Origin: Gammaproteobacteria bacterium LSUCC0096
Lineage (GTDB): Bacteria; Pseudomonadota; Gammaproteobacteria; Pseudomonadales; Litorivicinaceae
Direction of reading: 5' to 3'
DNA length: 64,000 nucleotides
NCBI GenBank assembly: GCA_008087055.1
Contig: VIEA01000001.1
Location: forward strand, 909,118-973,117
In this document: positions 5,773-55,933 of the stretch, piece after piece
Numbering within the stretch: position 1 is the first letter of the stretch
Layout: the number at the start of each line of letters is the position of its first letter
Notes under the pieces: generated by a model
What the model was told of the DNA's origin: nothing
Seen by the model: only the letters and a program-made list of their open reading frames with translations
Databases searched by the model: none
Position numbers and translations under genes: made by a program

Positions 5773-6543
5773 GTGGAATCACTCGCCTGGTATCAATATG
5801 GCGCGATTGGACTAATTTTTATTTGGTCAGGTTTCGTACGCAGCGGACTTGGCTTTGGCGGCGCCGTCCTCGCCCTTCCATTTCTATTGCTAATCGTTAA
5901 CGATCCATTGGTATTTCTGCCTCTGATAGCTGTTCACCTCATCTTTTTCTCGACCCTCATAATGATTCAAAGCGCCCGCAATAAGGGGCCTGAGCAATTG
6001 AAAACCATTAACTGGGGTTACTTAAAGCGAAGCATGGGTATCATGATCATTCCCAAGATTGCTGGCGTGATTGGCCTCTTGACGCTTCCACCGGTCATTA
6101 TGAGCACGATTATTTTCTTAATCGTTTTAGCGTATGCAATCGGCTATATCATCAATAGACCCATCGAAATTAAAACCAAATTTCAAGAATATGGCTTCCT
6201 AGGCCTTGGTGCCTACGTATCAGGAACCTCTCTCACTGGCGCACCATTGATCGTCCCAGTCGTCGCATCGCATGTCGCGAAACATGAGCTTAGAAACACG
6301 CTGTTTGTCTTGTGGTGGATATTAACGCTGATTAAATTGGCGTCATTTGTTATTGCAGGGGTCGACTTGCAGTTAATACACCATGTCTGGCTCCTCCCCT
6401 GTGCGTTCATCGGCCACCTCCTCGGTAACCGAATACACAATTACCTGGTAGAGCAAGAGACGCCCACATTTTTCAGAGTCTTAGGTATCGCTCTTGTCGT
6501 TGTCAGTCTCACGGGTCTTATCAAGCCGCTCTTTTTTGCATAA
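5773..6543 (+). CDS. TauE/SafE family membrane transporter
   Basis: A 256-residue integral membrane protein with about eight hydrophobic segments. It has the TauE/SafE signatures near the N terminus (GFVRSGLGFGGAVLALPFLL) and in the second half (GAYVSGTSLTGAPLIVPV). Members export or import sulfite, sulfoacetate or other organic anions; the substrate is unknown here. The start is GTG at 5773, three bases after the ytoQ stop, so it is likely the last gene of that operon. It ends 5 bp before the convergent aldo-keto reductase gene. A second, different TauE protein is encoded at 19565-20317. Confidence 0.9.
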   Translation: MESLAWYQYGAIGLIFIWSGFVRSGLGFGGAVLALPFLLLIVNDPLVFLPLIAVHLIFFSTLIMIQSARNKGPEQLKTINWGYLKRSMGIMIIPKIAGVIGLLTLPPVIMSTIIFLIVLAYAIGYIINRPIEIKTKFQEYGFLGLGAYVSGTSLTGAPLIVPVVASHVAKHELRNTLFVLWWILTLIKLASFVIAGVDLQLIHHVWLLPCAFIGHLLGNRIHNYLVEQETPTFFRVLGIALVVVSLTGLIKPLFFA

Positions 6544-6548
6544 CGCGA

Positions 6549-7607
6549 TTAAGGCATATCCGCCAATGTCCGCTTCGATGATTCTTGCCATAGATTCAGA
6601 TTAAAATCTTTTGCGAACCCATCAATCGCTATCAGTTCCTCAGTGCTAAATGCAAGATTTTTAGTCGCATCAATCAATTCAACAAGCTGCTCATTCGTTC
6701 GAACCCCGACCAAAGCTGAAGCAACTGTCGACCTTCTTAAGACCCAGCTAACCGCAAGCTGCGATAGCGTTTGGCTCCGATTTGCGGCGATCTCATTTAA
6801 ACCCTGTAACGCCCATCGAACATCTTCAGTGATCAATTTCGAGTCGAATGAACCAGCATGACCCGCGCGAGCTTCAGAGGGAACGCCACTGATATATTTG
6901 TTGCTCAGAAGCCCCTGAGCCAGCGGCGAAAACACAATCGCTCCGATACCTTCGTGATCCAATGTATCAAACAACCCTTCTGTCTCAACCCAACGGTTAA
7001 ACATTGAATAGCTTGGCTGGTGAATTAAGCACGGGACACCCATTCGATTCAGAATTTCATTCGCTTTAATCGTCAACTCAGGGCCATAGGAAGAGATGCC
7101 GACATACAGCGCCTTGCCCTGCTGAACAGCCGACGCAAGAGCACCCATTGTCTCTTCAAGCGGCGTCTCGGGATCGACGCGATGGGAATAAAAAATATCG
7201 ACGTAATCCAAGCCCATACGGGACAAACTCTGATCGAGGCTCGACAAAAGATATTTGCGGCTACCGCCATTACCATAGGGTCCTGGCCACATGTCATAGC
7301 CCGCCTTAGTCGAGATGATAAGCTCATCTCTAAAGGATAAGAAGTCTCGACGCAATATCTCGCTGAACTGAATTTCAGCAGAACCATAAGGAGGGCCATA
7401 ATTATTGGCTAGATCGAAGTGAGTAATCCCATTATCAAAGGCCGTGCGAAGCATTGCCTGAACCGATGAAATTGAAGTCTCAAAACCAAAATTCTGCCAA
7501 AGGCCCAGGGAGATGATTGGAAGCTTCAAACCGCTGCGTCCGACTTTCCGATAGTCCATCGAATGATAGCGTGCACTCGCTGGCGTATATTTCGTCATCA
7601 AATTCAT
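6549..7607 (-). CDS. Aldo/keto reductase (YghZ/GpdA-like)
   Basis: A 352-residue NADPH-dependent reductase of the AKR superfamily, close to the L-glyceraldehyde-3-phosphate reductase (YghZ) type by the motifs GITHFDLANNYGPPYGSAE, STKAGYDMWPGPYG and GGSRKYLL. The catalytic tetrad is visible as Asp and Tyr in FDLANNY, Lys in STKAGY and His in FYSHR. It is the last gene of the sugar operon and overlaps the upstream Gfo/Idh/MocA gene by 4 bp (ATGA). That links it to metabolism of the imported sugar or a derivative; the true substrate is unknown. Confidence 0.92.
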   Translation of the reverse strand: MNLMTKYTPASARYHSMDYRKVGRSGLKLPIISLGLWQNFGFETSISSVQAMLRTAFDNGITHFDLANNYGPPYGSAEIQFSEILRRDFLSFRDELIISTKAGYDMWPGPYGNGGSRKYLLSSLDQSLSRMGLDYVDIFYSHRVDPETPLEETMGALASAVQQGKALYVGISSYGPELTIKANEILNRMGVPCLIHQPSYSMFNRWVETEGLFDTLDHEGIGAIVFSPLAQGLLSNKYISGVPSEARAGHAGSFDSKLITEDVRWALQGLNEIAANRSQTLSQLAVSWVLRRSTVASALVGVRTNEQLVELIDATKNLAFSTEELIAIDGFAKDFNLNLWQESSKRTLADMP

Positions 7608-8535: not shown

Positions 8536-9507
8536 CTAAGCCCTCACAACATAACGATCGAGAGAATTGGTTACTAACGCCCGCTTCAGGCCATACAGGC
8601 CAGCCTCAGAATCCAACAGGATCTTAATCGGGATATTAATTAAGTAATCTTTAAACCGGCCTTTCGAGCGGAAGCGTTCGAGAAAAATTTCACGACGAAA
8701 ATGGTCGCCTAGTTTAGGAATAACCCCGCCGGCAATGCAGCAACCACCCGTAGCACCAAGGGTCAGGCACCCATCTGACGCCACAATCCCAAAGAAACCT
8801 GCAAACAAATCGAGTGTTCGACGAACAATCGAGTCATCACCATGCAAATCAATCATCGCTTGAGGCGAATTTATAATGGGCGCTATACCTTCTAACGCGC
8901 ATAACGACCGATAAATCAACATGAGTCCAGGTCCACTGATAAGACGCTCTGCTGATACATGTGAGTACTCGTTGCGCAGCATGGTTAGTAGGCGCCACTC
9001 GTCCTCTGTCTGCGCAGCCATCGTCACATGGCCGCCTTCAGTCGATAGAGGAGTCCATTCACCCTGAGCATCGACAACCAGCCCACCAACGCCAAGGCCT
9101 GTCCCGGGGCCAATAACGAATATAGGACCAAGGGGATCAGCAGACCCAGATTGGAGTGTCTCGAATGAGTCTTGATTAATCGACACTGCCGCTAATGACT
9201 GTGCCGTGAAATCATTAACAACCAGGAGTTCGCTCAGATTTAAGGAGTCTACCAACGCCTTTTTGCTAAAACTCCAATCATTATTTGTCAATTTGACTAA
9301 ATCATGCTGAACCGGACATGCAACAGCAATCGCTAATCGATTAGTTGGTTGGCCGACCTCACTGGCGAAGTGTCGAAATGCCTCATCAATTCCTAGAAAA
9401 TCCGCACATTGCAGAACAGAAATATGATCAATGTCTCCACTGTGATTGACCAGCCCGAACCGAGCATTGGTTCCTCCAATATCGGCAACAATGGCCTCTG
9501 CTGACAC
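8536..9507 (-). CDS. glk: Glucokinase
   Basis: Phosphorylates glucose to glucose-6-phosphate with ATP. The 323-residue product shows the family N terminus (IVADIGGTNARFGLV), the catalytic Asp in VVNDFTAQSLA, the glycine-rich IGPGTGLGVGGLV, and STEGGHV in the sugar site. The start is GTG and overlaps the stop of the ABC ATPase gene by one base (TAGTG), so translation is coupled. Placement in the ABC operon strongly suggests that the imported sugar is glucose or is converted to it. Confidence 0.95.
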   Translation of the reverse strand: MSAEAIVADIGGTNARFGLVNHSGDIDHISVLQCADFLGIDEAFRHFASEVGQPTNRLAIAVACPVQHDLVKLTNNDWSFSKKALVDSLNLSELLVVNDFTAQSLAAVSINQDSFETLQSGSADPLGPIFVIGPGTGLGVGGLVVDAQGEWTPLSTEGGHVTMAAQTEDEWRLLTMLRNEYSHVSAERLISGPGLMLIYRSLCALEGIAPIINSPQAMIDLHGDDSIVRRTLDLFAGFFGIVASDGCLTLGATGGCCIAGGVIPKLGDHFRREIFLERFRSKGRFKDYLINIPIKILLDSEAGLYGLKRALVTNSLDRYVVRA

Positions 9508-10604
9508 TAGCGGACGCGCTCCCCTGATTTAGGATCAAATAGACACGCCTTTGACAAATCAACTTGCACTGAAGTGTTTTCGCCTGCGCTCAATCCAGCT
9601 TCGGGCGAGAGGCGAGCGAGCACCTCAACATCATTCCATTCACCGATTGCAATCGTATCTGCTCCCATCGGTTCGGTCACATCAAAATCCATCGTCATGT
9701 TTACAATCCACTCACCCGAGCGCTCAGGTTTTGGTTCAGTGATCATCTCTGGTCTGAGGCCCAGTATTACCTTACGAACATCTTGGCCTTTCAAATGATC
9801 TGACTGCGGCACCTTTAGACTCACCACTGCTCCCCGGTTTCGTATGGCTATAGATCCATCCTCAGCCACCTCGCAGGGTACAAAATTCATCGGCGGACTC
9901 CCCATAAATCCTGCGACAAACTGGTTCGCCGGATCATCATAGATTTCATTCGGAGTACCGAGCTGCTGAACTAGACCATCCTTCATCACAGCAATCCGAT
10001 CAGCAAGCGTCATTGCCTCAATCTGATCGTGCGTCACATAAACGATCGTTGTTCCAAGACGTTTATGTAACTTCTTAATTTCGGTGCGCATTTCAACTCT
10101 AAGCTTGGCATCAAGGTTCGATAGCGGCTCGTCGAAAAGATAGACCCGGGGAGAGCGTGCGAGGGCCCTTCCCATCGCAACTCTCTGCCTTTGTCCGCCT
10201 GACAGCTGGCTTGGCTTTCGATCGAGCAAATGATTGATTTGCAGTAAAGTTGAGACCTCTTCAACCTTCCGATCCCTTTCAGCCTTGGGTACGCCTCTCA
10301 TTTCAAGTCCAAAGGAAATATTGCGCGCGACATTCATTGTCGGATACAGCGCATAGGACTGAAAAACCATCGCAATATCCCGATCTTTAGGACTTCGATC
10401 AGTCACATCCTCATTCGCGAGCAACAATTGCCCTGACGAAACATCCTCCAAGCCCGCAATCGTGTTCATCAGAGTTGATTTTCCGCAACCCGACGGGCCA
10501 ACAAGAATTAAAAATTCACCATCTGCGATATCGATGTTGATACCTTTGAGAACTTCAGTCGAACCAAAAGTCTTGGTTACATTGGAAATAGTCAGTGAGC
10601 CCAT
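9507..10604 (-). CDS. Sugar ABC transporter ATP-binding protein (UgpC/MalK type)
   Basis: The 365-residue cytoplasmic ATPase of the sugar importer. Walker A GPSGCGKST is near residue 37, the signature LSGGQRQRVAMGRALAR near 135, Walker B VYLFDEPLSNLD just after, and the H-loop VTHDQIEAMTLADR near 190. The C-terminal 120 residues form the TOBE/MalK regulatory domain (LGLRPEMI). It follows the second permease gene by 4 bp and runs into glk. Confidence 0.96.
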   Translation of the reverse strand: MGSLTISNVTKTFGSTEVLKGINIDIADGEFLILVGPSGCGKSTLMNTIAGLEDVSSGQLLLANEDVTDRSPKDRDIAMVFQSYALYPTMNVARNISFGLEMRGVPKAERDRKVEEVSTLLQINHLLDRKPSQLSGGQRQRVAMGRALARSPRVYLFDEPLSNLDAKLRVEMRTEIKKLHKRLGTTIVYVTHDQIEAMTLADRIAVMKDGLVQQLGTPNEIYDDPANQFVAGFMGSPPMNFVPCEVAEDGSIAIRNRGAVVSLKVPQSDHLKGQDVRKVILGLRPEMITEPKPERSGEWIVNMTMDFDVTEPMGADTIAIGEWNDVEVLARLSPEAGLSAGENTSVQVDLSKACLFDPKSGERVR

Positions 10605-40399: not shown

Positions 40400-42364
40400 C
40401 TATCGCGCGGCGATTGCGCGCTTAGTCGCTTTGCGTTTTGGTGGCGCGAATCCATCACGTTTTGGCTGTGACTGCTTCGTACCTGAAGAGCGGCTTGAGT
40501 TACCGCCTGCTGAACCTTGCTTTGCATTACGAGGCTTGCCAGATTTTTGACCATAAGATGGACGATCCCCATCACGGTTAGGGCGTGATTCACGAGATTC
40601 TGCTCGCTGACCTGAATTCGACCGATCACCATTCCATTCACGACGTTCTGAACGCTCACCTTCACGACTCGGACGTGACTGACGGGCATCCGTGCGCTGA
40701 CCTGAATTCGAACGATCACTACTCCAATCGCGACGCTCTGAACGCTCACCTTCACGACTCGGGCGCGACTGACGAGAATCCGTCCGTTGACCTGAGTTCG
40801 AACGATCACTACTCCAATCGCGACGCTCTGAACGCTCGCCTTCACGGCTCGGACGTGACTGGCGAGAATCTGTCCGTTGACCTGAGTTCGAACGATCACT
40901 ACTCCAATCGCGACGCTCTGAACGCTCACCTTCACGACTCGGGCGCGACTGACGAGAATCCGTCCGTTGACCTGAGTTCGAACGATCACTATTCCAATCA
41001 CGACGCTCTGAACGCTCGCCGTTGCGATCCGATCGCGAATCGCGCGTCTCTGAACGCTGGCTCGTCCGTTGCTCGTCAGATCGTCCACGACCATACCCTT
41101 CAGTATTATCGCGACGACGTGCCTGAGCACCACCGCCTGTTCGATCAGAACGCGCGTCAGAACTGCGAGCTGGTCGACCCCGACCACTCGACTGTCCATG
41201 TTTACGCGGCTGCGGCTTTCCTTTCGGCTTCTTCACTGGAAATGGAATTTGCGGTTCAAATCCGTCAGCCACTTCAAATTCAATATCGACTTTTAGGAGA
41301 TGCTGGATATCTCGCATCAAACGATGCTCAGTGCCGCAAACGAACGAAATCGCCTCGCCCTTTTCTCCAGCGCGGCCCGTACGACCAATCCGGTGTACAT
41401 AATCCTCAGCCACCATCGGTAATTCAAAATTAATGACATAAGGAAGTTTTTGGATATCGATACCGCGTGCCGCGACATCGGTTGCAACAAGAATACGAGC
41501 GTCGCCGCGCTTAAACCGTTGTAACGCTTTAGTTCTTTGAGCCTGGCTTTTATTACCGTGCATCGCTACCGAAGGTAAGCCACTATCAGTCAGCGCTCGC
41601 GCAAGCTTATCTGCGCCGAACTTAGTTTTGGTAAATACCAAAACTTGGTGCATGTTATTCAGGCCGATCAATTGCGTAAGGAGATCGCGCTTATTATGTT
41701 GATCGACGTGAACAAATGTCTGTGCAACAGATGTTGAGACTGTGTTGTCTTTAGCAACAGCGACTTCGACAGGATTCGAGAGATATTTCGCAGCAAGGTT
41801 TTTAATGCCCTTGTTGTAAGTCGCAGAGAATAGTAGCGTCTGGTGCGATGGATGACATTTCGAAATAATAAGTTCAATGTCACTAACAAAGCCCATATCG
41901 AGCATGCGATCGGCTTCATCAAGAATCAATGTTTGGACCTGTGACAGATCGATTGACCCTTGGTTCAAGTGATCGAGCAAACGACCGGGTGTAGCGATCA
42001 CGATATCCAAGCCGCCTCGTAATGCTTTCATTTGACCGCCATAGCTCACACCACCAAAAATGCTGGTATGTTTAAGCCCAAGGCCTTTCCCGTATTTCCT
42101 AACACTATCTGCAACTTGAGCCGCAAGCTCACGCGTTGGCGCCAAAACCAAAGCACGCGGTGCATGCCCTGCCTTACCGGCATAGAGGCGTTGTAAAACG
42201 GGTAACGAGAAAGCAGCTGTTTTGCCTGTTCCAGTCTGAGCGCCGGCGAGTACGTCTCGGCCTTCTAAAACTGCTGGGATGGCATTTGCCTGTACTGGTG
42301 TTGCGGCGTCATAGCCCGCATTAGAGACGAGTTCAGGCAAAAGCCCTAAGTCTTGAAAGCGCAT
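40400..42364 (-). CDS. DEAD-box RNA helicase, RhlE-like, with Arg/Ser-rich repeat tail
   Basis: A 654-residue RNA helicase. Q motif (FQDLGLLPELV...PVQ), Walker A AQTGTGKT, PTRELAAQV, TPGRLLDH, DEAD, SAT and HRIGRTGRAG are all present within residues 1-350. The tail (about 390-654) is disordered, rich in Arg, Ser, Asp and Gly. It contains five 30-residue repeats (ERSERRDW...SRPSREG), encoded by 90-bp units at 40568-41017. Such tails bind RNA and promote condensates in cold-adaptation and ribosome-assembly helicases (family knowledge). Monocistronic or first gene of a minus-strand unit. Confidence 0.95.
   Translation of the reverse strand: MRFQDLGLLPELVSNAGYDAATPVQANAIPAVLEGRDVLAGAQTGTGKTAAFSLPVLQRLYAGKAGHAPRALVLAPTRELAAQVADSVRKYGKGLGLKHTSIFGGVSYGGQMKALRGGLDIVIATPGRLLDHLNQGSIDLSQVQTLILDEADRMLDMGFVSDIELIISKCHPSHQTLLFSATYNKGIKNLAAKYLSNPVEVAVAKDNTVSTSVAQTFVHVDQHNKRDLLTQLIGLNNMHQVLVFTKTKFGADKLARALTDSGLPSVAMHGNKSQAQRTKALQRFKRGDARILVATDVAARGIDIQKLPYVINFELPMVAEDYVHRIGRTGRAGEKGEAISFVCGTEHRLMRDIQHLLKVDIEFEVADGFEPQIPFPVKKPKGKPQPRKHGQSSGRGRPARSSDARSDRTGGGAQARRRDNTEGYGRGRSDEQRTSQRSETRDSRSDRNGERSERRDWNSDRSNSGQRTDSRQSRPSREGERSERRDWSSDRSNSGQRTDSRQSRPSREGERSERRDWSSDRSNSGQRTDSRQSRPSREGERSERRDWSSDRSNSGQRTDARQSRPSREGERSERREWNGDRSNSGQRAESRESRPNRDGDRPSYGQKSGKPRNAKQGSAGGNSSRSSGTKQSQPKRDGFAPPKRKATKRAIAAR
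40568..41017 (-). repeat. Five tandem 90-bp repeats inside the helicase gene
   Basis: Unit boundaries at 41017, 40927, 40837, 40747 and 40657 follow the anchor cgacgctctg seen at 41001, 40911, 40821, 40731 and (with one change) 40641. The stretch 40711-40800 is identical to 40891-40980 while the unit between them differs at several bases, which points to a 180-bp duplication or conversion. The period is a whole number of codons, so length changes keep the frame. Confidence 0.95.
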
Positions 42365-46913: not shown

Positions 46914-48086
46914 TCACCCAGTGATTTCAGAACGGGGCAACGGTTCTCGGATCAGCGAACGCATCGCAAGTAACCCAAGCACAGGACCCGGCATTAAAAG
47001 CCAGACCACAAATACGTCCAGTTGATCGACCCAATTGGTCAACAGAACAATCGATCCAATCGATAAGAAAAATCCGATGCTGTTCTGGATCGATAACGCA
47101 CTACCAACCATATCTGCAGGGCAGGATTTGGAGGAAATCGCTGAAAATTGAGCGGAATCCGCGATCACGAAGAAGCCCCAAACCATCAATCCGAGCATCG
47201 CCATCCAAAAGGTATTTGCCAGCATTGGGTAAATCAAACACATGACACCGGACATCAATAGCGATACAAAAGCGACACGCCCACTACCCCAGCGTGAACT
47301 CATGAGCCCGCCCCAAACCGCGCCGAAGAGGCCGATCGCGATGACAGCAAAAGACCACAATGAAATCTCAAGAAGACTTGCTTCACCAACCACCGACGCG
47401 ACCAACCAAGGCACCAGAGTCCAAAATGCATATAACTCCCACATATGCCCAAAATAGCCAAACGCCGATGCTCGAAAGCGCGGAATTCCAAAGCTTTTGA
47501 ACACGGCACCCCATTGGATCGCACCTGCCTGCTTCGCTCCAAATGGACCTTCGCCAATCATAATGACCAGCATCCCACCGACCACCGCAAGCCCACTGAC
47601 TAGAGTGAGTGTGTATCGCCAGTCAGGTGACCAAGCTAATCCATTGAAGAGATGTGGCGAGGCCGTACCTAAGGTCAACATGCCTACTACAAGCCCAAGA
47701 CCAACACCTGGAAGCTTTGGCGACCAGCTCACAATGAGCTTCATACCAATTGGATAGATTCCTGCTAAACAAACGCCAACGATAAAGCGGTAGATCAAGC
47801 CCTCACTTAACCCATCCGCGTGATACGCGAATAACAGATTCGCTAGTGCACCAATGAAGGACGCCCATAAAAAGATCAGTGATGGACGAAAACGGTCAGC
47901 AATGTTCGAGATCGCAAGACCAAGAGTCCCTGCAATAAAGCCCGCCTGAACTGCACCGGTGAGAAGTCCAATATCGGACGCCTCTAGATTCCAGTGCTCA
48001 ATGAGCGCAGCTGAGACGCCATTCACACTAAACCATAGAGTGCATCCAAGGAATTGAGCGAATGCGATTCCAAAAACTTGAGTCAA
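46914..48086 (-). CDS. MFS transporter
   Basis: A 390-residue, 12-helix MFS protein. GFIAGTLGLAISNIADRFRPS holds the loop 2-3 motif, and FAQFLGCTLWFSVNGVSAAL begins helix 1. The start is TTG at 48086 with AGGAAA about 8 bases upstream; no ATG is near. Substrate unknown. It lies 19 bp after an Lrp-type regulator gene on the same strand, which may control it. Confidence 0.9.
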   Translation of the reverse strand: MTQVFGIAFAQFLGCTLWFSVNGVSAALIEHWNLEASDIGLLTGAVQAGFIAGTLGLAISNIADRFRPSLIFLWASFIGALANLLFAYHADGLSEGLIYRFIVGVCLAGIYPIGMKLIVSWSPKLPGVGLGLVVGMLTLGTASPHLFNGLAWSPDWRYTLTLVSGLAVVGGMLVIMIGEGPFGAKQAGAIQWGAVFKSFGIPRFRASAFGYFGHMWELYAFWTLVPWLVASVVGEASLLEISLWSFAVIAIGLFGAVWGGLMSSRWGSGRVAFVSLLMSGVMCLIYPMLANTFWMAMLGLMVWGFFVIADSAQFSAISSKSCPADMVGSALSIQNSIGFFLSIGSIVLLTNWVDQLDVFVVWLLMPGPVLGLLAMRSLIREPLPRSEITG

Positions 48087-48105: not shown

Positions 48106-48561
48106 TCAGACCAATCGTGCCACACTCTCTTTGACTCGGCGTAGCGGTATCGAAGACTCAATGGACGCTACCCCTTCGATTTTTGTCAACTTACGGGTCA
48201 AAAACCGCTCAAATTCGTGTAAATCCGACACCGCGACCCGCAACAAATAATCAAACCCCCCGGTCATCAACCAACAATCGACCACCTCTTGATATCGAGC
48301 TACCGCCTCCTCGAAAGTGACGAGTCTGTCATCGATTTGTTTATCCAGGCGAACTGACACAAAAATACTGAATCCAAAGCCAAGCTTTTCCTCATCAATT
48401 AATGCCGTATACCCACGGATATATCCATCCGTTTCAAGTTTCTTAACGCGACGCGCGCACGGAGTCGGGGAAAGACCCACCTCATCTGCCAACTCAAGCT
48501 GAGACAATCGACCATCTCTCTGGAGCGCCTTCAGAATTTTCCCATCGATACCATCAAGCAT
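48106..48561 (-). CDS. Lrp/AsnC family transcriptional regulator
   Basis: A 151-residue regulator: the winged HTH (LDGIDGKILKALQRDGRLS, then LSPTPCARRVKKLE) and the RAM domain (VDCWLMTGGFDYLLRVAV). The ATG at 48561 is preferred over a TTG at 48588. It lies divergent from aceE and just upstream of an MFS gene. Different from the Lrp-type protein at 2623. Possible targets are its own promoter, the MFS genes and aceE. Confidence 0.93.
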   Translation of the reverse strand: MLDGIDGKILKALQRDGRLSQLELADEVGLSPTPCARRVKKLETDGYIRGYTALIDEEKLGFGFSIFVSVRLDKQIDDRLVTFEEAVARYQEVVDCWLMTGGFDYLLRVAVSDLHEFERFLTRKLTKIEGVASIESSIPLRRVKESVARLV

Positions 48562-48612
48562 AGCCAATATCTCTTTTACTGATTCCAAATTTAGATTTAA
48601 TCACTAAATAAA

Positions 48613-48692: not shown

Positions 48693-51371
48693 ATGAATCA
48701 ACCCCTCGATCAGTGGATATCCGACCACATCGACGACGATATGCGGCAAGAATGGATTGATGCGCTCAGATCTCTGGTCCGAGAAGAAGGCAAACAACAA
48801 GCGAAACAGCTCCTCGACGCACTCGATGATGAAGCACGTGTTCTTGGCATCAACCAAACCAAGGCACCCTATTCGGCCTATCAAAATACGATTTCCTTAG
48901 CAGAACAGCCAGCCTATCCAGGAGATCTCGACATCGAAGAACGCCTGACCTCGATCATGCGTTGGAACGCACTCGCCATGGTCGTTCGCGCGAACAAGGC
49001 CTACGGAGAGCTTGGTGGACACATTGCTTCGTATGCATCATGCGCCGAGATCTTCGAGCTTGGATTTAATCATTTCTTCAGAGCGCGGACGGAGTCCTTT
49101 GACGGAGATTTAGTCTATTTTCAACCGCATTCTGCTCCTGGAGTCTATGCGAGGGCATTTTTAGAGGGTCGACTCTCTGAAGACGATCTAAAAAACTATC
49201 GTCAGGAAGTACCCGGCAATGGGCTGTGCTCTTATCCTCATCCATGGCTGATGAAAGACTTCTGGCAGGTTCCCACGGGTTCAATGGGCATCGGGCCTAT
49301 CTCAGCGATCTACCAAGCGCGATTTATGCGCTACCTCGAACATCGCCAGTTGACCGAAAGCCAGGATCGCCACGTCTGGGGAGTGTTTGGTGATGGCGAG
49401 ATGGATGAGCCTGAATCTCTCGCGGCCTTAACTTTGGCTGCGCGCGAGAATCTCGACAACCTCACATTCATTGTGAATTGCAACTTACAACGACTCGACG
49501 GCCCTGTTCGCGGTAATGGTCAAATCATCCAAGAGCTCGAATCCTTGTTCATTGGCGCCGGCTGGAACGTCATCAAAGTACTTTGGGGTTCCGAGTGGGA
49601 CACGCTCTTTTCGTTGGACCATGAACATGTCCTACTGAAGCGATTTTCTGAAACTCCTGACGGGGAGTATCAGAATTTAGGATCAAAAGATGGCGACTAC
49701 AACCGTCATAAATTTTTTGAAAAAGATCCAAAAACTGCAGAACTTGTGAAACACATGAGTGATGCTGAAATCAACGCCCTCAAACGAGGTGGCCATGATT
49801 TCAAAAAGCTCTTTGCTGCCTTTGCCGCCGCCAAAGCTCACCGAGGACAACCGACGGTGATCCTTGCGAAAACAAAAAAAGGCTATGGCATGGGTGGAGC
49901 TGGCGAATCAAAAATGACAGCACATCAGGCGAAAAAGCTCGATATTGAGAATTTGCTGGCTTTCCGCGACCGCTTTCAATTACCACTCTCAGATGAGCAA
50001 GTTGAGCAGCTTGAATTTGTAAAGCCGCAACAAGACTCGAAAGAAATTCAATATCTACTTGAGCGTCGTAGTGAGCTGGGTGGTTTCCTACCAAAGCGCT
50101 TTTCAAGCACTACGAATCAACTGCCTACTCGCCCATCATTCAGTACATATGCAAAATCAGCACTCGAAGCCGATGGCAAAGAGATGTCAACGACGATGGC
50201 ATTGGTCCGCATCATCAGCGGTTTATTAAGAGATAAACAATTTGGTAAGCACATCGTTCCAATTGTTGCAGATGAAGCTCGAACCTTCGGCATGCAAACC
50301 CTTTTCCATCAGATTGGCATCTATTCGCCACATGGTCAGACCTATGAGCCGGAAGATGCGGGCTCTTTGGTTTCTTATAAAGAAGCAAAAGACGGCCAAT
50401 TACTCGAAGAAGGTATCTCTGAGGCCGGAGCAATTAGCTCATGGACAGCAGCAGCGACCGCCTACTCAGCACACAACATCGAACTCCTGCCGATGTACAT
50501 TTACTACTCCATGTTCGGCTTTCAACGCATTGGCGATTTAATCTGGGCGGCTGCAGATCAACGAGCCCGTGGGTTTTTATTCGGTGCCACGGCCGGCAGA
50601 ACAACTCTATCCGGTGAAGGGCTTCAACATCAAGATGGCTCAAGTCATTTGATCGCAGCAACGATTCCGAATTGTCGTGCCTACGATCCATGTTTTGCAT
50701 ATGAATTGGCCGTTATTGTGGAGTTCGGGATTCACCGGATGTACGACAAGAAACACGATGAGTTTTTCTACATTACATTAATGAATGAAAACTACCCTCA
50801 TCCGTCTCGTCCCGATGGAATTGATGAGGACATCATTCGTGGAATGTATCTCTATCACTCAGCCGGACCCTCAGAAGCGCCTTGTGTGCGTCTTCTCGGT
50901 TCAGGCACGATCTTGAAGCAAGTCATTGAAGCTGCCCATTTGCTTACTGAGAACTTCGACGTGCGATGCGAGATTTTTTCAGTAACGTCATTCAGCGAAT
51001 TGGCGCGTGACGCGCAATCAGTACAACGCGATCGGCGACTCACCGGGTCTTCTGAGACGTCTCACGTTGAGAAACTTCTCGAAGGTATCGATCCAATTGT
51101 CTGCGCAACAGATTATGTCCGTGCTGTTCCTGCTCAAATCAGTCCCTACATTACAGCCCCATTTCATGTATTAGGGACCGATGGATTTGGGCGATCAGCC
51201 AATCGCCAAGCATTGCGTGCATTTTTTGAAGTCAACGCTACACATATTGCTTTTACCGCGATCACTTCTTTAGTCGATACAGGTCAACTTCCAGATGAAG
51301 CGCGACAGCACGCGCAAGAGTTATTTGAGATAAAACACTCCGTATCGCAACCAGCTCCGTGGAACCAATAG
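48693..51371 (+). CDS. aceE: Pyruvate dehydrogenase E1 component (homodimeric type)
   Basis: Thiamine-diphosphate enzyme that decarboxylates pyruvate and acetylates E2 lipoyl groups. The 892-residue product is the single-chain gammaproteobacterial type (E. coli AceE is 887). Its N terminus (RWNALAMVVRANK, GGHIASYASCAEIFELGFNH), the ThDP motif FGDGEMDEPES...NCNLQRLDGPV and the C-terminal VLGTDGFGRS all fit. A strong AAGGAGT precedes the ATG. Unusually there is no aceF or lpd next to it; a terminator follows at once. Confidence 0.97.
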   Translation: MNQPLDQWISDHIDDDMRQEWIDALRSLVREEGKQQAKQLLDALDDEARVLGINQTKAPYSAYQNTISLAEQPAYPGDLDIEERLTSIMRWNALAMVVRANKAYGELGGHIASYASCAEIFELGFNHFFRARTESFDGDLVYFQPHSAPGVYARAFLEGRLSEDDLKNYRQEVPGNGLCSYPHPWLMKDFWQVPTGSMGIGPISAIYQARFMRYLEHRQLTESQDRHVWGVFGDGEMDEPESLAALTLAARENLDNLTFIVNCNLQRLDGPVRGNGQIIQELESLFIGAGWNVIKVLWGSEWDTLFSLDHEHVLLKRFSETPDGEYQNLGSKDGDYNRHKFFEKDPKTAELVKHMSDAEINALKRGGHDFKKLFAAFAAAKAHRGQPTVILAKTKKGYGMGGAGESKMTAHQAKKLDIENLLAFRDRFQLPLSDEQVEQLEFVKPQQDSKEIQYLLERRSELGGFLPKRFSSTTNQLPTRPSFSTYAKSALEADGKEMSTTMALVRIISGLLRDKQFGKHIVPIVADEARTFGMQTLFHQIGIYSPHGQTYEPEDAGSLVSYKEAKDGQLLEEGISEAGAISSWTAAATAYSAHNIELLPMYIYYSMFGFQRIGDLIWAAADQRARGFLFGATAGRTTLSGEGLQHQDGSSHLIAATIPNCRAYDPCFAYELAVIVEFGIHRMYDKKHDEFFYITLMNENYPHPSRPDGIDEDIIRGMYLYHSAGPSEAPCVRLLGSGTILKQVIEAAHLLTENFDVRCEIFSVTSFSELARDAQSVQRDRRLTGSSETSHVEKLLEGIDPIVCATDYVRAVPAQISPYITAPFHVLGTDGFGRSANRQALRAFFEVNATHIAFTAITSLVDTGQLPDEARQHAQELFEIKHSVSQPAPWNQ

Positions 51372-51391
51372 TCCTGAAAGGAGACTAGAAA

Positions 51392-51423
51392 GCTGCGCCG
51401 GCCACAAGCTGGCGCGGCTTTTT
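51392..51423 (+). terminator. Rho-independent terminator of aceE
   Basis: Arms gctgcgccggc (51392-51402) and gctggcgcggc (51408-51418) form an 11-pair stem with two G-U pairs and a 5-base loop, followed by five T. It lies 21 bp after the aceE stop, so aceE is probably transcribed alone. Confidence 0.9.
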
Positions 51424-51452: not shown

Positions 51453-51471
51453 CTGAATTCTGAATTCAGAA
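51453..51471. promoter_or_regulatory. Palindromic operator candidate before gntR
   Basis: TTCTGAATTCAGAA (51458-51471) is a perfect 14-bp palindrome inside an overlapping repeat CTGAATTCTGAATTCAG. It ends 16 bp before the gntR ATG, so it is a likely autoregulatory operator of the FCD-type regulator that heads the PhyH operon. Confidence 0.55.
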
Positions 51472-51487
51472 CACAAAAATAACACGT

Positions 51488-52138
51488 ATGCAGATCCAAA
51501 AAACCGACCTTGTTGATCAGGTATATGAACTCATTAGGCAACGAATCCTCACAGGTGAGCTTGGACCTGAAGCTCCTTTGCGCCAAGAAGAATTAGCGGA
51601 TCAACTTGGTGTCAGCCGGCAGCCCATCAGTCATGCACTGGTTCTTCTTGAACGCGAAGGTCTGATCTCTGATTACGGTCGAAAAGGCAAAATGGTTGCC
51701 CCTATTAATCCGACACAACTCCGTGATCTTTATGAAGTCCGCGGAGCCATCGACGGCCTCGCTGCCTATCTATGCGCCATTCATCGAGACTCAAAAACCG
51801 AACGTGAGCTCATGCTATTAATCAAACAAGGCGAGGATGCACAACAGACTGGATCAATTCAAGCGCTTGCAATTGCTGATATCGCGTTCCACCGCGCTTT
51901 ATATGAGCGATCAGGTAATCCCGAAATCACATCCTTTGCCGATCGATCTTGGAATCATATGGTTCGCTCAATGCATCAGGTGCTTGAAAGTTCAAGCCTT
52001 CGGCCTGGCATATGGGATGAACATCGTGCGATTGCAGAAGCGATTATCACAGGAGACGCAGATCTTGCCCGCGAAAGAGCAACGACACACGCACAATCAG
52101 CCGGTCAAATCACCTATCAACGTTTGACCGAACAATAA
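51488..52138 (+). CDS. GntR family regulator (FCD domain)
   Basis: A 216-residue regulator. The winged helix is in residues 1-70 (LADQLGVSRQPISHALVLLE), and the FCD domain has metal-binding His in ADIAFHRALYE and DEHRAIAEAI. It starts the operon with the PhyH and SAF genes (21 bp gap to the next gene) and probably represses it. It follows aceE but is separated by a terminator, so it is unlikely to be the PdhR equivalent. Confidence 0.92.
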   Translation: MQIQKTDLVDQVYELIRQRILTGELGPEAPLRQEELADQLGVSRQPISHALVLLEREGLISDYGRKGKMVAPINPTQLRDLYEVRGAIDGLAAYLCAIHRDSKTERELMLLIKQGEDAQQTGSIQALAIADIAFHRALYERSGNPEITSFADRSWNHMVRSMHQVLESSSLRPGIWDEHRAIAEAIITGDADLARERATTHAQSAGQITYQRLTEQ

Positions 52139-52158
52139 CCAATAAAAAGGAGCAATCC

Positions 52159-52947
52159 ATGAAGCTGAGCGCACAACAACTCGAACAATTTGACCGTGAA
52201 GGATACTTATTTCTTCCAAACCTCTTTTCACCTGAAGAAGCAGCCTTTCTCAAAACTGAAGCGGAAACGATTTATCAGATGGACCGCAAAGAGGTATGGC
52301 GAGAGAAAAGTGGTGTCGCACGAACAGCATTTGCCGCGCACACCTATAATGAGGGATTCCGTCGACTTGGGGCCCACCCACGGCTCATAGAGCCAGTTGA
52401 ACAATTACTCGACGGCAAAGTGTATATGCATCAATACAAGGTCAATGCGAAGGCCCCGTTCGATGGCGCAGTATGGCAATGGCATCAGGACTATGGCACA
52501 TGGAAGCGCGATGACGAAATGCCAGAACCTCGGGCAATGAATATCAGTGTCTTTCTTGATGACGTGACGGCCGCTAATGGCCCCCTTCTATTCATTCCTG
52601 GAAGCCATAAACACGGAGTAGTCAAAGCGGGACATGATCTAGAAACAACGAGCTACCCGTTATGGACGCTTGATCGGGAGACCGTTACTGAACTTGCAGA
52701 GCAAGGAGGCTGTGTTGCCCCGACTGGTCCTGCCGGCAGCGTGCTTCTTTTCTCATCATTACTCGTCCATGCGAGCCCACCGAATATCTCACCATTCGGC
52801 CGCACAATTGTGTATTTATCGCTGTGCGAAACGAGTAACCACATTCGCGCGTTCAATCGAGAAGAATGGATAGCACACCGCGACTTCACTCCAATCGAAG
52901 CGCTCGAGGATGACTGCCTACAACAATTGCTCTCTGAACCAGCCTAA
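52159..52947 (+). CDS. Phytanoyl-CoA dioxygenase (PhyH) family protein
   Basis: A 262-residue 2OG-Fe(II) dioxygenase. Iron ligands are H109 and D111 (QWHQDYGTW) and H204 (LLVHASPPN), with the 2OG-binding R215 (FGRTIVYLS). MNISVFLDDVTAANGPLLF and PGSHKHG are typical of PhyH/ectoine-hydroxylase relatives. It would hydroxylate a small molecule; the substrate is unknown. AAAGGAG precedes the ATG, and the gene is followed after 9 bp by the SAF-domain dehydrogenase, so the two likely act in one pathway. Confidence 0.92.
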   Translation: MKLSAQQLEQFDREGYLFLPNLFSPEEAAFLKTEAETIYQMDRKEVWREKSGVARTAFAAHTYNEGFRRLGAHPRLIEPVEQLLDGKVYMHQYKVNAKAPFDGAVWQWHQDYGTWKRDDEMPEPRAMNISVFLDDVTAANGPLLFIPGSHKHGVVKAGHDLETTSYPLWTLDRETVTELAEQGGCVAPTGPAGSVLLFSSLLVHASPPNISPFGRTIVYLSLCETSNHIRAFNREEWIAHRDFTPIEALEDDCLQQLLSEPA

Positions 52948-52956
52948 GGATTTAGC

Positions 52957-54255
52957 ATGTATATCTACGATGACCTCGCGAAGCGCGCCGAACGCCCTGT
53001 TCAAGTTGGACTCATAGGAGCCGGAAAATTTGGCTCCATGTTTTTAAGCCAAGTCCCAACGACCGTTGGACTTGAAGTCAAAGCCATTGCCGACTTGGAC
53101 CCAGAGCGTGCCAAGCAAGCCTGCCGAAACGTCGGATGGAGCGAGGAGCTCATCAAACAAACTGAGTTCTTTGACAATACTCAACACATGATTGATGCAG
53201 GTGGCATTGATGTTCTCGTTGAAGCCACCGGCAATCCTTTGGCTGGTATCGCTCACGCGAAAATGGCGATCGAGAGCAAGATACATATCGTGATGGTCAA
53301 TGTCGAAGCTGACGTGCTTGCCGGTGGGATTCTTGCCAGAGAAGCAAGAGAAGCAGGCATCGTCTATTCTATGGCCTATGGTGACCAACCCGCTCTCACG
53401 ATTGAGCTTGTCGAATGGGCTCGCGCAACAGGCTTCAATGTCGTCGCAGCAGGCAAAGGCACCAAATACATGCCCGAGTATCACTATTCAACGCCAGATA
53501 CGATCTGGGATCACTACGGACTCACTCCAGAGCAAGCTGCAGCAGCCGGCATGAACAGCCAAATGTTCAATAGCTTCCTGGACGGAACAAAGTCCGCATT
53601 GGAAATGGCAGCCATCTCAAATGGTACAGGTCTCAAAGCGCCTGACGATGGTCTCTATTTTCCACCGGCCGGGATGGATGATCTGGCACATATTCTCAGG
53701 CCTCGCTCTGTTGGTGGACAACTTGATGACAGCGGCATGGTTGAAGTTGTTACTTCAGTCGAACGTGACGGACGCCCTGTTTATAAAGATCTTCGCTGGG
53801 GTGTTTATGTCGTGATTGAGGCTCCAAATGATTATGCATCTGCATGTTTTAAGCAGTACGGCATGAATACCGACTCAACAGGTCGTTACTCAGCGATGTA
53901 CAAACCCTTCCATTTGATTGGCTTGGAACTCAACATATCAATCCTTTCAGCTGCCCTTCTCAATAAACCTACGGGCTCGACACTCGATTTCAACAGTGAC
54001 GTCGTTGCAACCGCAAAACGTGACTTGAAAGCCGGTGAAATGCTCGATGGCGAAGGCGGTTTCACTGTGTACGGAAAACTAATGCCTGCAACGAAGTCGC
54101 TCGCACTAGGCGGCCTTCCGATCGGCCTCGCACATCGCGTGAAACTCAAAAACAACGTCAATAAAGACCAGCCGATCTCGTGGGCCGATGTTGAAATTGA
54201 TATGACCACTCAGGCCGTTTCAACCCGAAAAGCGATGGAAGACCTTTACCGCTAG
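52957..54255 (+). CDS. NAD(P)-dependent oxidoreductase with C-terminal SAF domain
   Basis: A 432-residue protein. The N-terminal homoserine-dehydrogenase-like Rossmann domain has LIGAGKFGSMFL (residues about 19-30) and DVLVEATGNPLAG. The C-terminal SAF domain follows (VVATAKRDLKAGEMLDGEGG, then GLPIGLAHRVKL). Proteins of this layout are often labelled FlgA-like or homoserine dehydrogenase-like, but neither role fits here. It probably oxidises an alcohol or aldehyde made by the PhyH enzyme (inference). The 3' end overlaps the convergent DUF4387 gene by 4 bp. Confidence 0.88.
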   Translation: MYIYDDLAKRAERPVQVGLIGAGKFGSMFLSQVPTTVGLEVKAIADLDPERAKQACRNVGWSEELIKQTEFFDNTQHMIDAGGIDVLVEATGNPLAGIAHAKMAIESKIHIVMVNVEADVLAGGILAREAREAGIVYSMAYGDQPALTIELVEWARATGFNVVAAGKGTKYMPEYHYSTPDTIWDHYGLTPEQAAAAGMNSQMFNSFLDGTKSALEMAAISNGTGLKAPDDGLYFPPAGMDDLAHILRPRSVGGQLDDSGMVEVVTSVERDGRPVYKDLRWGVYVVIEAPNDYASACFKQYGMNTDSTGRYSAMYKPFHLIGLELNISILSAALLNKPTGSTLDFNSDVVATAKRDLKAGEMLDGEGGFTVYGKLMPATKSLALGGLPIGLAHRVKLKNNVNKDQPISWADVEIDMTTQAVSTRKAMEDLYR

Positions 54256-54563
54256 TCTGGAATCTCAAGGCTCAACAGCGGCGCATGCTGTTGGGCCCCG
54301 TAGACGTCCGTTTCTCCAAATGCACCCGATGATCTGGAACGCTTGATCGTTACTTTAATCGCGAGTGCTGGCTCAAATTCAACCACAGAAATTACATCGC
54401 TAAGCGAAATCTGGAACAGCTCTGCAAATTTGGCCGCAGACAACACCTCAGATCTCACCACCCGTTCAAAATCATCATGAGTCGCAAATAACACATCAAA
54501 GGTGAGTTCAAATGGGCCTGCATTCTTTGAGCGAATCACTGTCGCCAGATCAGATAGCTTCAT
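54252..54563 (-). CDS. DUF4387 family protein
   Basis: A 103-residue protein with the DUF4387 pattern (IRSKNAGPFELTFDVLFATH, then DDFERV and VISVVEFEPALAIKVTIKR). DUF4387 genes usually sit next to AtuA-like (DUF1446) genes, as here with a 4-bp overlap, and probably form a complex or act on the same substrate. Molecular function is unknown. Confidence 0.88.
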   Translation of the reverse strand: MKLSDLATVIRSKNAGPFELTFDVLFATHDDFERVVRSEVLSAAKFAELFQISLSDVISVVEFEPALAIKVTIKRSRSSGAFGETDVYGAQQHAPLLSLEIPD

Positions 54564-55933
54564 CGGGACACTCCCCTAACCTTGATCTGAATTGGAAATG
54601 GACTTTTCGGGTCATCAACTGTCATGAGGTGGTACACACTGAATTCGTAGACCACACCATGCGAGATATCTGATGGAGAATATGGAAACGCAAGATTACC
54701 AGCCGTTGATTGCCGTCCTGGATAACCAAAATGCAGCAGCGTCGACCGAGCAAATGAGCAGACGGTATCCGCAAGCGATTGTGTTTTCGCCACTACTTCG
54801 ATCACCAAACCGACCTCATGTGGCAGTTGCTCACGAAAAGGTTCTAACTCACCCATCACACCATCCTTCCCGTATACGCGAAACAAGAGTTGAACCTCTG
54901 CTTGGTCAATCGATTGAAAGTTTGTGAAAACACGACCACGGACGGCGAGCAACACTTCATCGAGTTGCTGAATCAAATCAGGAGCACGAATTCCGGCGAT
55001 CGAAATTGTTCGAAAGCCCACGGGTTGCGCGCCCTCTAGCTTGATGGTGTATCGGTCACTTTTTTGTAACTGGGTACCAGTCACACGCACGCGACGCTCA
55101 TCAAGCTGTTCAAAGTGACAAGCAGTCAAATCCAATACACCGCCAGGACCTGGCAGAAATCGAGGATCTGTTTTCTCATAGAGCGTATGCGCTGCAACTG
55201 AAGTTACAGTGCATTGTCGCTCAGGACTCAAGGCTTCAAGCGTAAAACCGCCCTCATCAAGTACACCAAGCATGCAGTCAGACCCACTCCCAGGAACAGC
55301 GGCAATCGCAGCACACTCAAGAATTTTACCCATATGCAGTGATAATGCTTCAGACAAGCCTGCCCTGATCGGTACTGCCGCAAAAACTGCTGGGTCATAA
55401 CACCGTCCAGTCACCACGATCTGCGCACCGTGTTCGAGTGCTTCAATCACAGGTTCAACGCCCATCTGAGCAACAATATAGGTGGAATTTGTGATTGCAT
55501 CTTCAGTCAAATGAGGAACCGGACCAAGCGCTGAAATCCGCCCCGCATGCAATGCATTGATGACCGAGTCTTGGTCTTGGTCAGAGGCAATCTCGGCTAC
55601 CCGCGCACTGCGGTTTAGATCACAAAGCACCTCATCAATCACTTCAAGACACCATTGCAAATGCGGTCTAGCTCCAGATCCGCCAGCTGTGCCAATGAGC
55701 ACAGGAATATCTCGCTCAAGCCCTGCCTTAATCATGAGCGTTAGATCACGTTTGACAGCCTCTCTATTAGTAAACGATTCACCCGAGCCGAGGTAGTAAG
55801 GTCCTGGATCGGTTGAGCCTGCGTCAACAGCAATCGCATCTGGATTGCGAGCCAAACCGGCTTCAAATGATGATTCAGGAAATCCGTAGCCTAGAATCGC
55901 TGTCGGAGAAAGAATTGAAATGGAATGATTCAA
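54560..55933 (-). CDS. AtuA-like (DUF1446) family protein
   Basis: A 457-residue protein of the acyclic terpene utilization AtuA-like family: AVDAGSTDPGPYYLGSGES near residue 34, LIGTAGGSGARPHL near 81, VEPVIEALEHGAQIVVTGRCYDPAVFAA around 180-206. Family members occur in terpene and in other carboxylic-acid catabolic clusters, and none of the rest of the Atu pathway is present here. The start is TTG at 55933 with GAGG upstream. Coupled to DUF4387 and convergent to the PhyH operon. Confidence 0.88.
   Translation of the reverse strand: MNHSISILSPTAILGYGFPESSFEAGLARNPDAIAVDAGSTDPGPYYLGSGESFTNREAVKRDLTLMIKAGLERDIPVLIGTAGGSGARPHLQWCLEVIDEVLCDLNRSARVAEIASDQDQDSVINALHAGRISALGPVPHLTEDAITNSTYIVAQMGVEPVIEALEHGAQIVVTGRCYDPAVFAAVPIRAGLSEALSLHMGKILECAAIAAVPGSGSDCMLGVLDEGGFTLEALSPERQCTVTSVAAHTLYEKTDPRFLPGPGGVLDLTACHFEQLDERRVRVTGTQLQKSDRYTIKLEGAQPVGFRTISIAGIRAPDLIQQLDEVLLAVRGRVFTNFQSIDQAEVQLLFRVYGKDGVMGELEPFREQLPHEVGLVIEVVAKTQSLADTVCSFARSTLLHFGYPGRQSTAGNLAFPYSPSDISHGVVYEFSVYHLMTVDDPKSPFPIQIKVRGVSR

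Follow-up and report, generated by a model that had tools for sequence, protein, structure and literature searches.

Do the five genes lying between positions 51453 and 55933 of a 64,000-nt stretch of the Gammaproteobacteria bacterium LSUCC0096 genome (contig VIEA01000001.1; the whole stretch is called the window hereafter) work as a single oxidative pathway, and on what kind of compound would such a pathway act? Three of the genes are on the forward strand. They encode a GntR/FCD-family regulator that is probably an autorepressor (GntR; 51488-52138, Pfam GntR and FCD), a PhyH-family Fe(II)/2-oxoglutarate (2OG) hydroxylase resembling GriE and H11 (PhyH; 52159-52947, assigned by Pfam PhyH, a structure model and residues) and a probably NAD+-dependent DXR-II-like oxidoreductase of the DLO2 type with a SAF domain (DRL; 52957-54255, assigned by Pfam DRL_cat and SAF, a model and residues), with gaps of 20 bp between the GntR and PhyH genes and 9 bp between the PhyH and DRL genes. 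The reverse strand carries the genes of an AtuA protein that resembles the CmlA subunit of citramalate lyase (54560-55933; Pfam and a match to PDB 9erq) and of a DUF4387 protein, presumably the small subunit CmlB of that enzyme (54252-54563; Pfam DUF4387). These two genes overlap by 4 bp, as do the convergent 3′ ends of the DRL and DUF4387 genes. The original prediction had described five genes in two tight convergent units with a 4-bp overlap, and both the coordinates and all five families were borne out by the open reading frames and Pfam. The five genes thus exist as described, yet they do not form a single conserved module; the conserved core is GntR-PhyH-DRL. We propose, with a confidence that stops just short of even, that this core forms a cassette of two oxidising enzymes under their own repressor, which would work like the GriE-GriF pair but for breakdown, and that the citramalate lyase homologues (CmlAB) would be connected to it in bacteria of the OM252 type.

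The genome that contains the window comprises 1.94 Mb in 4 contigs and is 99.4% complete. Its closest named relatives were gammaproteobacterium HIMB30 (DRL 95%; locus L002, an isolate that carries the genes) and an Oceanospirillales metagenome-assembled genome (MAG; 99%). HIMB30 is a member of the OM252 clade, ‘Ca. Halomarinus’, for which a GC content of 47-51% is given, compared with 58-60% in Litoricola (available part of PMC8269220). Because of the kinship with HIMB30 and the GC content of the window (48.3%), which lies within the OM252 range, we take the genus of the window to be OM252-type.

The PhyH-DRL pairing across genomes

A search by DRL protein similarity returned 72 loci, 7 of which had too little upstream sequence, so that 65 could be evaluated. 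A PhyH homologue was present upstream of DRL in 59 of these 65 loci, in the same direction in 56 and divergently oriented in 3, and was missing from the other 6, although in L014 a short remnant of PhyH is left. Marine lineages with the pair are OM252-type, SAR116 and Granulosicoccaceae, and it recurs in other proteobacteria, Afipia genomes included. These loci are not all independent, since 35 of the 59, alphaproteobacterial and mostly titled SAR116, have in common a gene that lies between PhyH and DRL; it is of a tyrosine-phosphatase family in L036 (7244-7993), and the same gene cluster occurs in the 34 other loci. A phylum-wide draw of 398 genomes yielded 36 that contain a relative of DRL with an E of at most 1e-60. 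In the 32 stretches taken from them, PhyH lay just upstream in 13 (one of which, L126, is from the genome of L029) and not in the remaining 19. On the DRL tree the paired loci fell into several subclades, with a minimum of 12 changes and with 5 to 6 forced by well-supported branches; by these counts the pairing has been gained or lost more than once. Pairwise distances of PhyH and DRL were correlated over 26 loci (r = 0.68, 0/2000 permutations), a value to which shared ancestry contributes.

A GntR homologue also precedes PhyH in L021, L022, L029, L078, L125, L130, L136, L139, L141, L143 and L149. Conservation of the neighbourhood, on which the original prediction had made its proposal depend, held for PhyH-DRL, and in many loci for GntR-PhyH-DRL, and failed for the five genes as one module. 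The further idea that the locus is an undescribed oxidative system fared in a similarly divided way: an oxygenase, a dehydrogenase, a regulator of their own and a conserved operator are all in place and we found no description of the PhyH-DRL pair in the open-access literature, but AtuA/DUF4387 is homologous to an enzyme whose reaction is known. For DLO2-type enzymes the pairing supplies a recurrent partner and hence a testable chemistry, in which a free amino acid would be hydroxylated and then oxidised.

The palindrome ahead of the GntR gene

A perfect palindrome in front of an operon with its own regulator had been pointed out in the original prediction, and it is indeed present at 51453-51469 (a feature without strand), 18 bp ahead of the GntR start, with the sequence CTGAATTC-T-GAATTCAG. 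The window has three palindromes of this form (arms of 8 bp, spacer of 1 bp), so that perfection alone proves nothing and it is conservation that gives the element its meaning. The sequence CTGAATTC(A/T)GAATTCAG was retained in the window and in 10 of the 10 same-genus loci having the GntR gene (L002, L004-L009 and L011-L013), the only changes being a terminal base in L013 and the middle base in L004 and in L009, although the flanking sequence has diverged. The copy in the window is also the sole perfect one found in the genome, and it is because of these two properties that we regard the palindrome as meaningful. By eye, a TTGAC box could be recognised upstream of the palindrome in 11 of 11 same-genus sequences; the promoter scan gave this box no score, and the terminator and promoter scan showed no excess over shuffles. 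The conserved palindrome and the upstream box fit an autorepressor, and the palindrome is probably the operator of GntR itself.

Palindromes with a like core (TGAATTCtGAATTCA, ATTCTGAATTCAGAAT and ATACTGAATTCAGTAT) were present ahead of GntR in L021, L126 and L130, which belong to other lineages. Palindromes of the GGAATTCC type preceded GntR in L078 and L125 and a distinct TCTGTATACAGA type in L143 and L149, while a search ahead of GntR found none in L019, L022, L047, L136, L139 and L141. A wider GntR regulon was considered and discarded on the matches with up to 2 mismatches: the nearest other match in the genome, with 2 mismatches, falls within a 121-aa reading frame that looks HIT-like by eye.

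Residues and folds of the two enzymes

The solved proteins nearest to PhyH were the H11 proline hydroxylase, the GriE leucine hydroxylase and EctD. H11, a trans-3/4-proline hydroxylase (PDB 7dzz, 7e01 and 8h7t), was the closest by sequence (E 1e-60, ∼41% identity). The PhyH model (predicted local distance difference test, pLDDT, 88) matched GriE (5nci) with a Z of 33.9 and a root mean square deviation of 2.0 over 250 aligned residues, and H11 with a Z of 33.1. The iron ligands H109, D111 and H204 and also R215, which we take to be the 2OG-binding arginine, were invariant in 29 of 29 PhyH sequences. Equally invariant was R234, which in a HMMER alignment, with residue numbers shifted by 3 to bring the iron ligands into register, corresponds to Arg242 of GriE, the residue that binds the carboxylate of the product (available part of PMC5676206). 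By its iron site, carboxylate-binding arginine and fold, PhyH would thus be a hydroxylase of the GriE/H11 type that may act on an amino acid. A lid-like stretch, HDLxTTSYPLW, is near-invariant among the PhyH relatives and yet unlike that of GriE, H11 or EctD in the alignment, a pattern suggestive of a substrate common to the relatives and distinct from those of these three enzymes.

That PhyH might be a known ectoine hydroxylase or similar was one of two points that the original prediction had named as fatal to its case. PhyH scored 152.4 bits against a TIGR02408 cut-off of 336.5 bits, and we rejected EctD as its identity; the fold and the iron site are alike, but PhyH has HQD in place of HSD. 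Ectoine synthase (PF06339) gave no match in the genome, a search in which all 14 control genomes were silent too. The closest parallel in function would be GriE-GriF of griselimycin, in which a GriE-fold Fe/2OG hydroxylase with the same conserved arginine acts on a free amino acid and the NAD+ dehydrogenase GriF oxidises the new alcohol (PMC5676206, in its available part). The difference is that the GriE-GriF pathway is biosynthetic.

The DRL model (pLDDT 95.8) matched Brucella DRL (3upl) with a Z of 48.9, well ahead of DXR-I (Z 19.5) and homoserine dehydrogenase (Z 17.8). Such a relationship in sequence and fold would agree with a role in isoprenoid synthesis as a second DXR (DXR-II), but the diagnostic sites of DXR-II are replaced, Thr229 by Ser213 and Lys193 by Thr169. 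In addition, the genome has a DXR-I gene besides its single DRL gene, and DRL shares its operon with an oxygenase and a regulator. We rejected a DXR-II role on the diagnostic residues together with the presence of DXR-I, and assign it a negligible probability. Site 229 was Ser in 40, Pro in 7 and Ala in 6 of the 53 rows aligned, and Pro, Ser or Ala at this site is what has been reported for DLO2, a family called uncharacterised in 2013 (available part of PMC3847144). As judged from site 229 and the superfamily fold that both share, DRL resembles these DLO2 oxidoreductases and not DXR-II; the part of PMC3847144 available to us does not mention a pairing with PhyH. Asp46 was invariant in 53 of 53 DRL rows, and Brucella has Ser-Ala-Arg-Arg at that place. 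In Rossmann folds an Asp at this type of position favours NAD+, so that the invariant Asp46 suggests that DRL uses NAD+ and hence would run in the direction of oxidation.

Several other loci with related genes are worth recording. In L165 (7001-12537), and also in L167 and L169, from Rhizobiaceae and Paracoccaceae plasmids, a recurring operon consists of a DLO2-type enzyme, an ABM monooxygenase, a 3-hydroxyisobutyrate-type dehydrogenase and a tripartite ATP-independent periplasmic (TRAP) transporter. The TRAP binding proteins of other DLO2 operons were inspected as a transporter hint, and no close solved relative of them was found. On a Phaeobacter plasmid (L082, 5402-15436), a DLO2-type gene stands with dehydratase and lactonase genes, followed by MaoC, acyl-CoA dehydrogenase and CoA-transferase genes; L082 also holds a CoA ester lyase related to citramalyl-CoA lyase, below the cut-off of the latter. 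A DRL-type gene of Listeria innocua (L173) closely precedes phosphotransferase-system glucitol/sorbitol transporter genes. In L024 a gene for a beta-keto acid cleavage enzyme (6286-7131) lies directly before PhyH. A gene exceeding the cut-off for threo-3-hydroxy-L-aspartate ammonia-lyase (9417-10373) is divergent from GntR-PhyH-DRL in L143, a possible hint at a substrate.

Citramalate lyase homologues, proposed route and neighbouring genes

The convergent unit had been described as two proteins of unknown reaction, a description that no longer applies, because AtuA/DUF4387 is the homologue of a citramalate lyase of solved structure that elsewhere belongs to methylaspartate-pathway operons. AtuA matched PDB 9erq, ‘Citramalate lyase, subunit A (cmlA)’, with E 1.8e-161 and 541 bits over residues 3-442, and citramalate lyase CmlA (9erq and 9evf) with DUF4387 is the same AtuA-DUF4387 pair as the one found here. 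Six regions around AtuA relatives were examined, out of 99 plasmid-collection records; one is unannotated, and in 5 of the 5 annotated regions DUF4387 adjoins AtuA. Four of these have a fumarase gene nearby, and two of the four also glutamate mutase, as in methylaspartate-pathway operons, while the fifth (∼42%) has a different setting. For the enterobacterial pathway, what becomes of citramalate was still described as unclear in 2015, and the DUF1446 gene was left unexplained (available part of PMC4682846). The 9erq match, the operon setting and this unexplained step make the pair a probable citramalate lyase CmlAB, which would split citramalate into pyruvate and acetate. DUF4387 itself was not found in a search of the open-access literature. 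The setting here differs from that of these four relatives, for CmlAB lies beside PhyH-DRL instead of a fumarase gene and, as in two of the four, a glutamate mutase gene. No fumarase (mesaconase) gene adjoins CmlAB, which is the usual setting rather than a strict requirement, and a class I fumarase was found in the genome just once, ∼0.46 Mb away. Methylaspartate ammonia-lyase was not found in the genome either, by a search whose control matched in 11 of 14, with no more than 2 of these above the cut-off. For an aerobic, free-living bacterium that carries a probable citramalate lyase and in which no methylaspartate ammonia-lyase was detected, the source of citramalate becomes a question.

The two units tend to occur together. 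Among 25 family genomes, AtuA was present in 14 and DRL in 14, both in 13 and neither in 10, and the two genomes with AtuA or DRL alone (G406 and G418) are split into 410 and 280 contigs. Five of the 10 genomes with neither unit are at least 90% complete, and genome incompleteness accounts for some of the absences. Mapped onto a tree built from the housekeeping AceE of 19 family genomes, the units switched together in a mean of 4.9 of 5 independent contrasts, a number with which a sign test cannot reach 0.05. A metabolic link between the GntR unit and CmlAB is plausible.

From the computed families, residues, operator conservation, neighbourhoods and co-presence, we infer an amino-acid substrate, the direction of DRL, the kind of ligand of GntR and the link between the units, as follows. 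With Fe(II), O2 and 2-oxoglutarate, PhyH would hydroxylate a free amino acid on its side chain, and DRL/DLO2 would then use NAD+ to convert the resulting alcohol into an aldehyde or ketone. GntR would bind the palindrome near its own promoter, from which an acid of the pathway would release it. In OM252-type bacteria, CmlAB would probably act on what this route, or one connected with it, ends in, converting citramalate to pyruvate and acetate.

Several observations weigh against this scheme. The five genes include no transaminase, ammonia-lyase or aldehyde dehydrogenase, and the gene inserted between PhyH and DRL in the 35 alphaproteobacterial loci is left unexplained. The substrate of GriE cannot be transferred to PhyH, since GriE shows no turnover of valine or isoleucine (available part of PMC5676206). 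PhyH-less DLO2-type relatives occur in sugar-acid-like settings, with a class II aldolase, a dihydroxy-acid/sugar-acid-type dehydratase and an SMP-30 lactonase, and also with a TRAP transporter, an ABM monooxygenase and a 3-hydroxyisobutyrate-type dehydrogenase. As for the link between the units, the AtuA/DUF4387 pair was near DRL in only 11 of 117 DRL-relative loci, all of them in the window's own group, and adjacency alone may make the two units be lost together.

Given the sugar-acid-like settings of unpaired DLO2 enzymes, the cassette could act on something other than an amino acid, such as a sugar acid or another hydroxy acid, with DRL/DLO2 as an oxidoreductase or oxido-isomerase whose substrate is made by PhyH. 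Some paired loci have neighbours of a suitable kind: downstream in the SAR116 locus L036 there is a gene exceeding the 3-oxo-tetronate 4-phosphate decarboxylase cut-off and one below that of 2-oxo-tetronate isomerase, L019 has a sugar-binding/nucleotide-binding kinase-type gene, and L078 and L141 have, downstream, a gene below the tartronate-semialdehyde reductase cut-off. Each of these neighbours is limited to few lineages, however, and may be there by chance, and the PhyH relatives that match best in structure act on leucine, proline or ectoine and the carboxylate-binding arginine of GriE is invariant. We consider a non-amino-acid substrate unlikely.

A stronger competitor, to which we grant a sizeable though less than even chance, is that two independent units happen to be neighbours, GntR-PhyH-DRL oxidising some amino acid and CmlAB salvaging citramalate that is formed from mesaconate, itaconate or similar sea-water-derived acids. 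This would account for the small share of DRL-relative loci in which CmlAB adjoins DRL and for the fumarase gene that four annotated CmlAB relatives have nearby instead. The 17 kb of the Oceanospirillaceae MAG L010 include PhyH-DRL (82% and 85%) but no CmlAB, and in L013 the two units stand apart, with five additional genes between them, zinc-uptake-type and FUR-type ones among these. The co-presence in 13 and joint absence from 10 of the 25 family genomes argue the other way, as does the joint switching on the tree, within the limits of its test and of adjacency.

The gene upstream of the palindrome, on the same strand and behind a strong terminator-like hairpin, had been overlooked in the earlier reading. 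It encodes a second homodimeric 2-oxo-acid dehydrogenase E1 of the pyruvate dehydrogenase type (AceE2; 48693-51371, forward strand), an AceE paralogue that scores 1425.7 bits against the TIGR03186 cut-off of 1408.3 bits and is 53% identical to the other AceE copy in the genome. The hairpin, with a U-rich 3′ arm (51388-51422, forward strand; −26.4 kcal/mol, z −5.6, 0/200 shuffles as stable), ends the E1 gene and separates it from GntR. AceE2 is a loosely linked neighbour: of the 25 family genomes 11 carry it, all of them outside the 10 that have neither PhyH-DRL nor AtuA, and L004, L008 and L011 do not have it next to the core. Divergent from it is the gene of an Lrp-like regulator (48106-48588, reverse strand) whose best NCBIfam match, Lrp, reaches 135 bits, under the cut-off of 233; this gene adjoins AceE2 also in L002, L005, L006, L009, L012 and L013. 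Upstream of the Lrp-like gene lies a major facilitator superfamily (MFS) transporter gene (46914-48086), to which an MFS transporter directly before PhyH in L010 (5897-7081) is 42% identical, and weaker MFS matches are present in many SAR116 loci.

A more specific version of the proposed cassette, which would give every enzyme of the island a job if it were true, is an oxygen-dependent breakdown of leucine in OM252-type bacteria through methylated tricarboxylic acid cycle acids to citramalate; we hold it to be quite improbable. PhyH would turn L-leucine into 5-hydroxyleucine, from which DRL would yield 4-methylglutamate semialdehyde. Housekeeping enzymes would then carry out the methylated counterparts of the steps from glutamate to fumarate, via 4-methylglutamate, methyl-2-oxoglutarate, methylsuccinyl-CoA (with the help of the second E1), mesaconate and citramalate. 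Malate dehydrogenase cannot oxidise the tertiary alcohol of citramalate, and therefore CmlAB would cleave it to pyruvate and acetate. Such a route would require both the second E1 and CmlAB, and the loci that lack the second E1 weigh against its being indispensable. A valine route via 3-methylaspartate and mesaconate was also considered and is weakened, as no methylaspartate ammonia-lyase was found and GriE, in the available part of the report on it, does not turn over valine.

Elsewhere in the window, the gene at 40400-42364 encodes a DEAD-box-helicase-like protein whose translation shows a long C-terminal tail with a repeated charged peptide unit.

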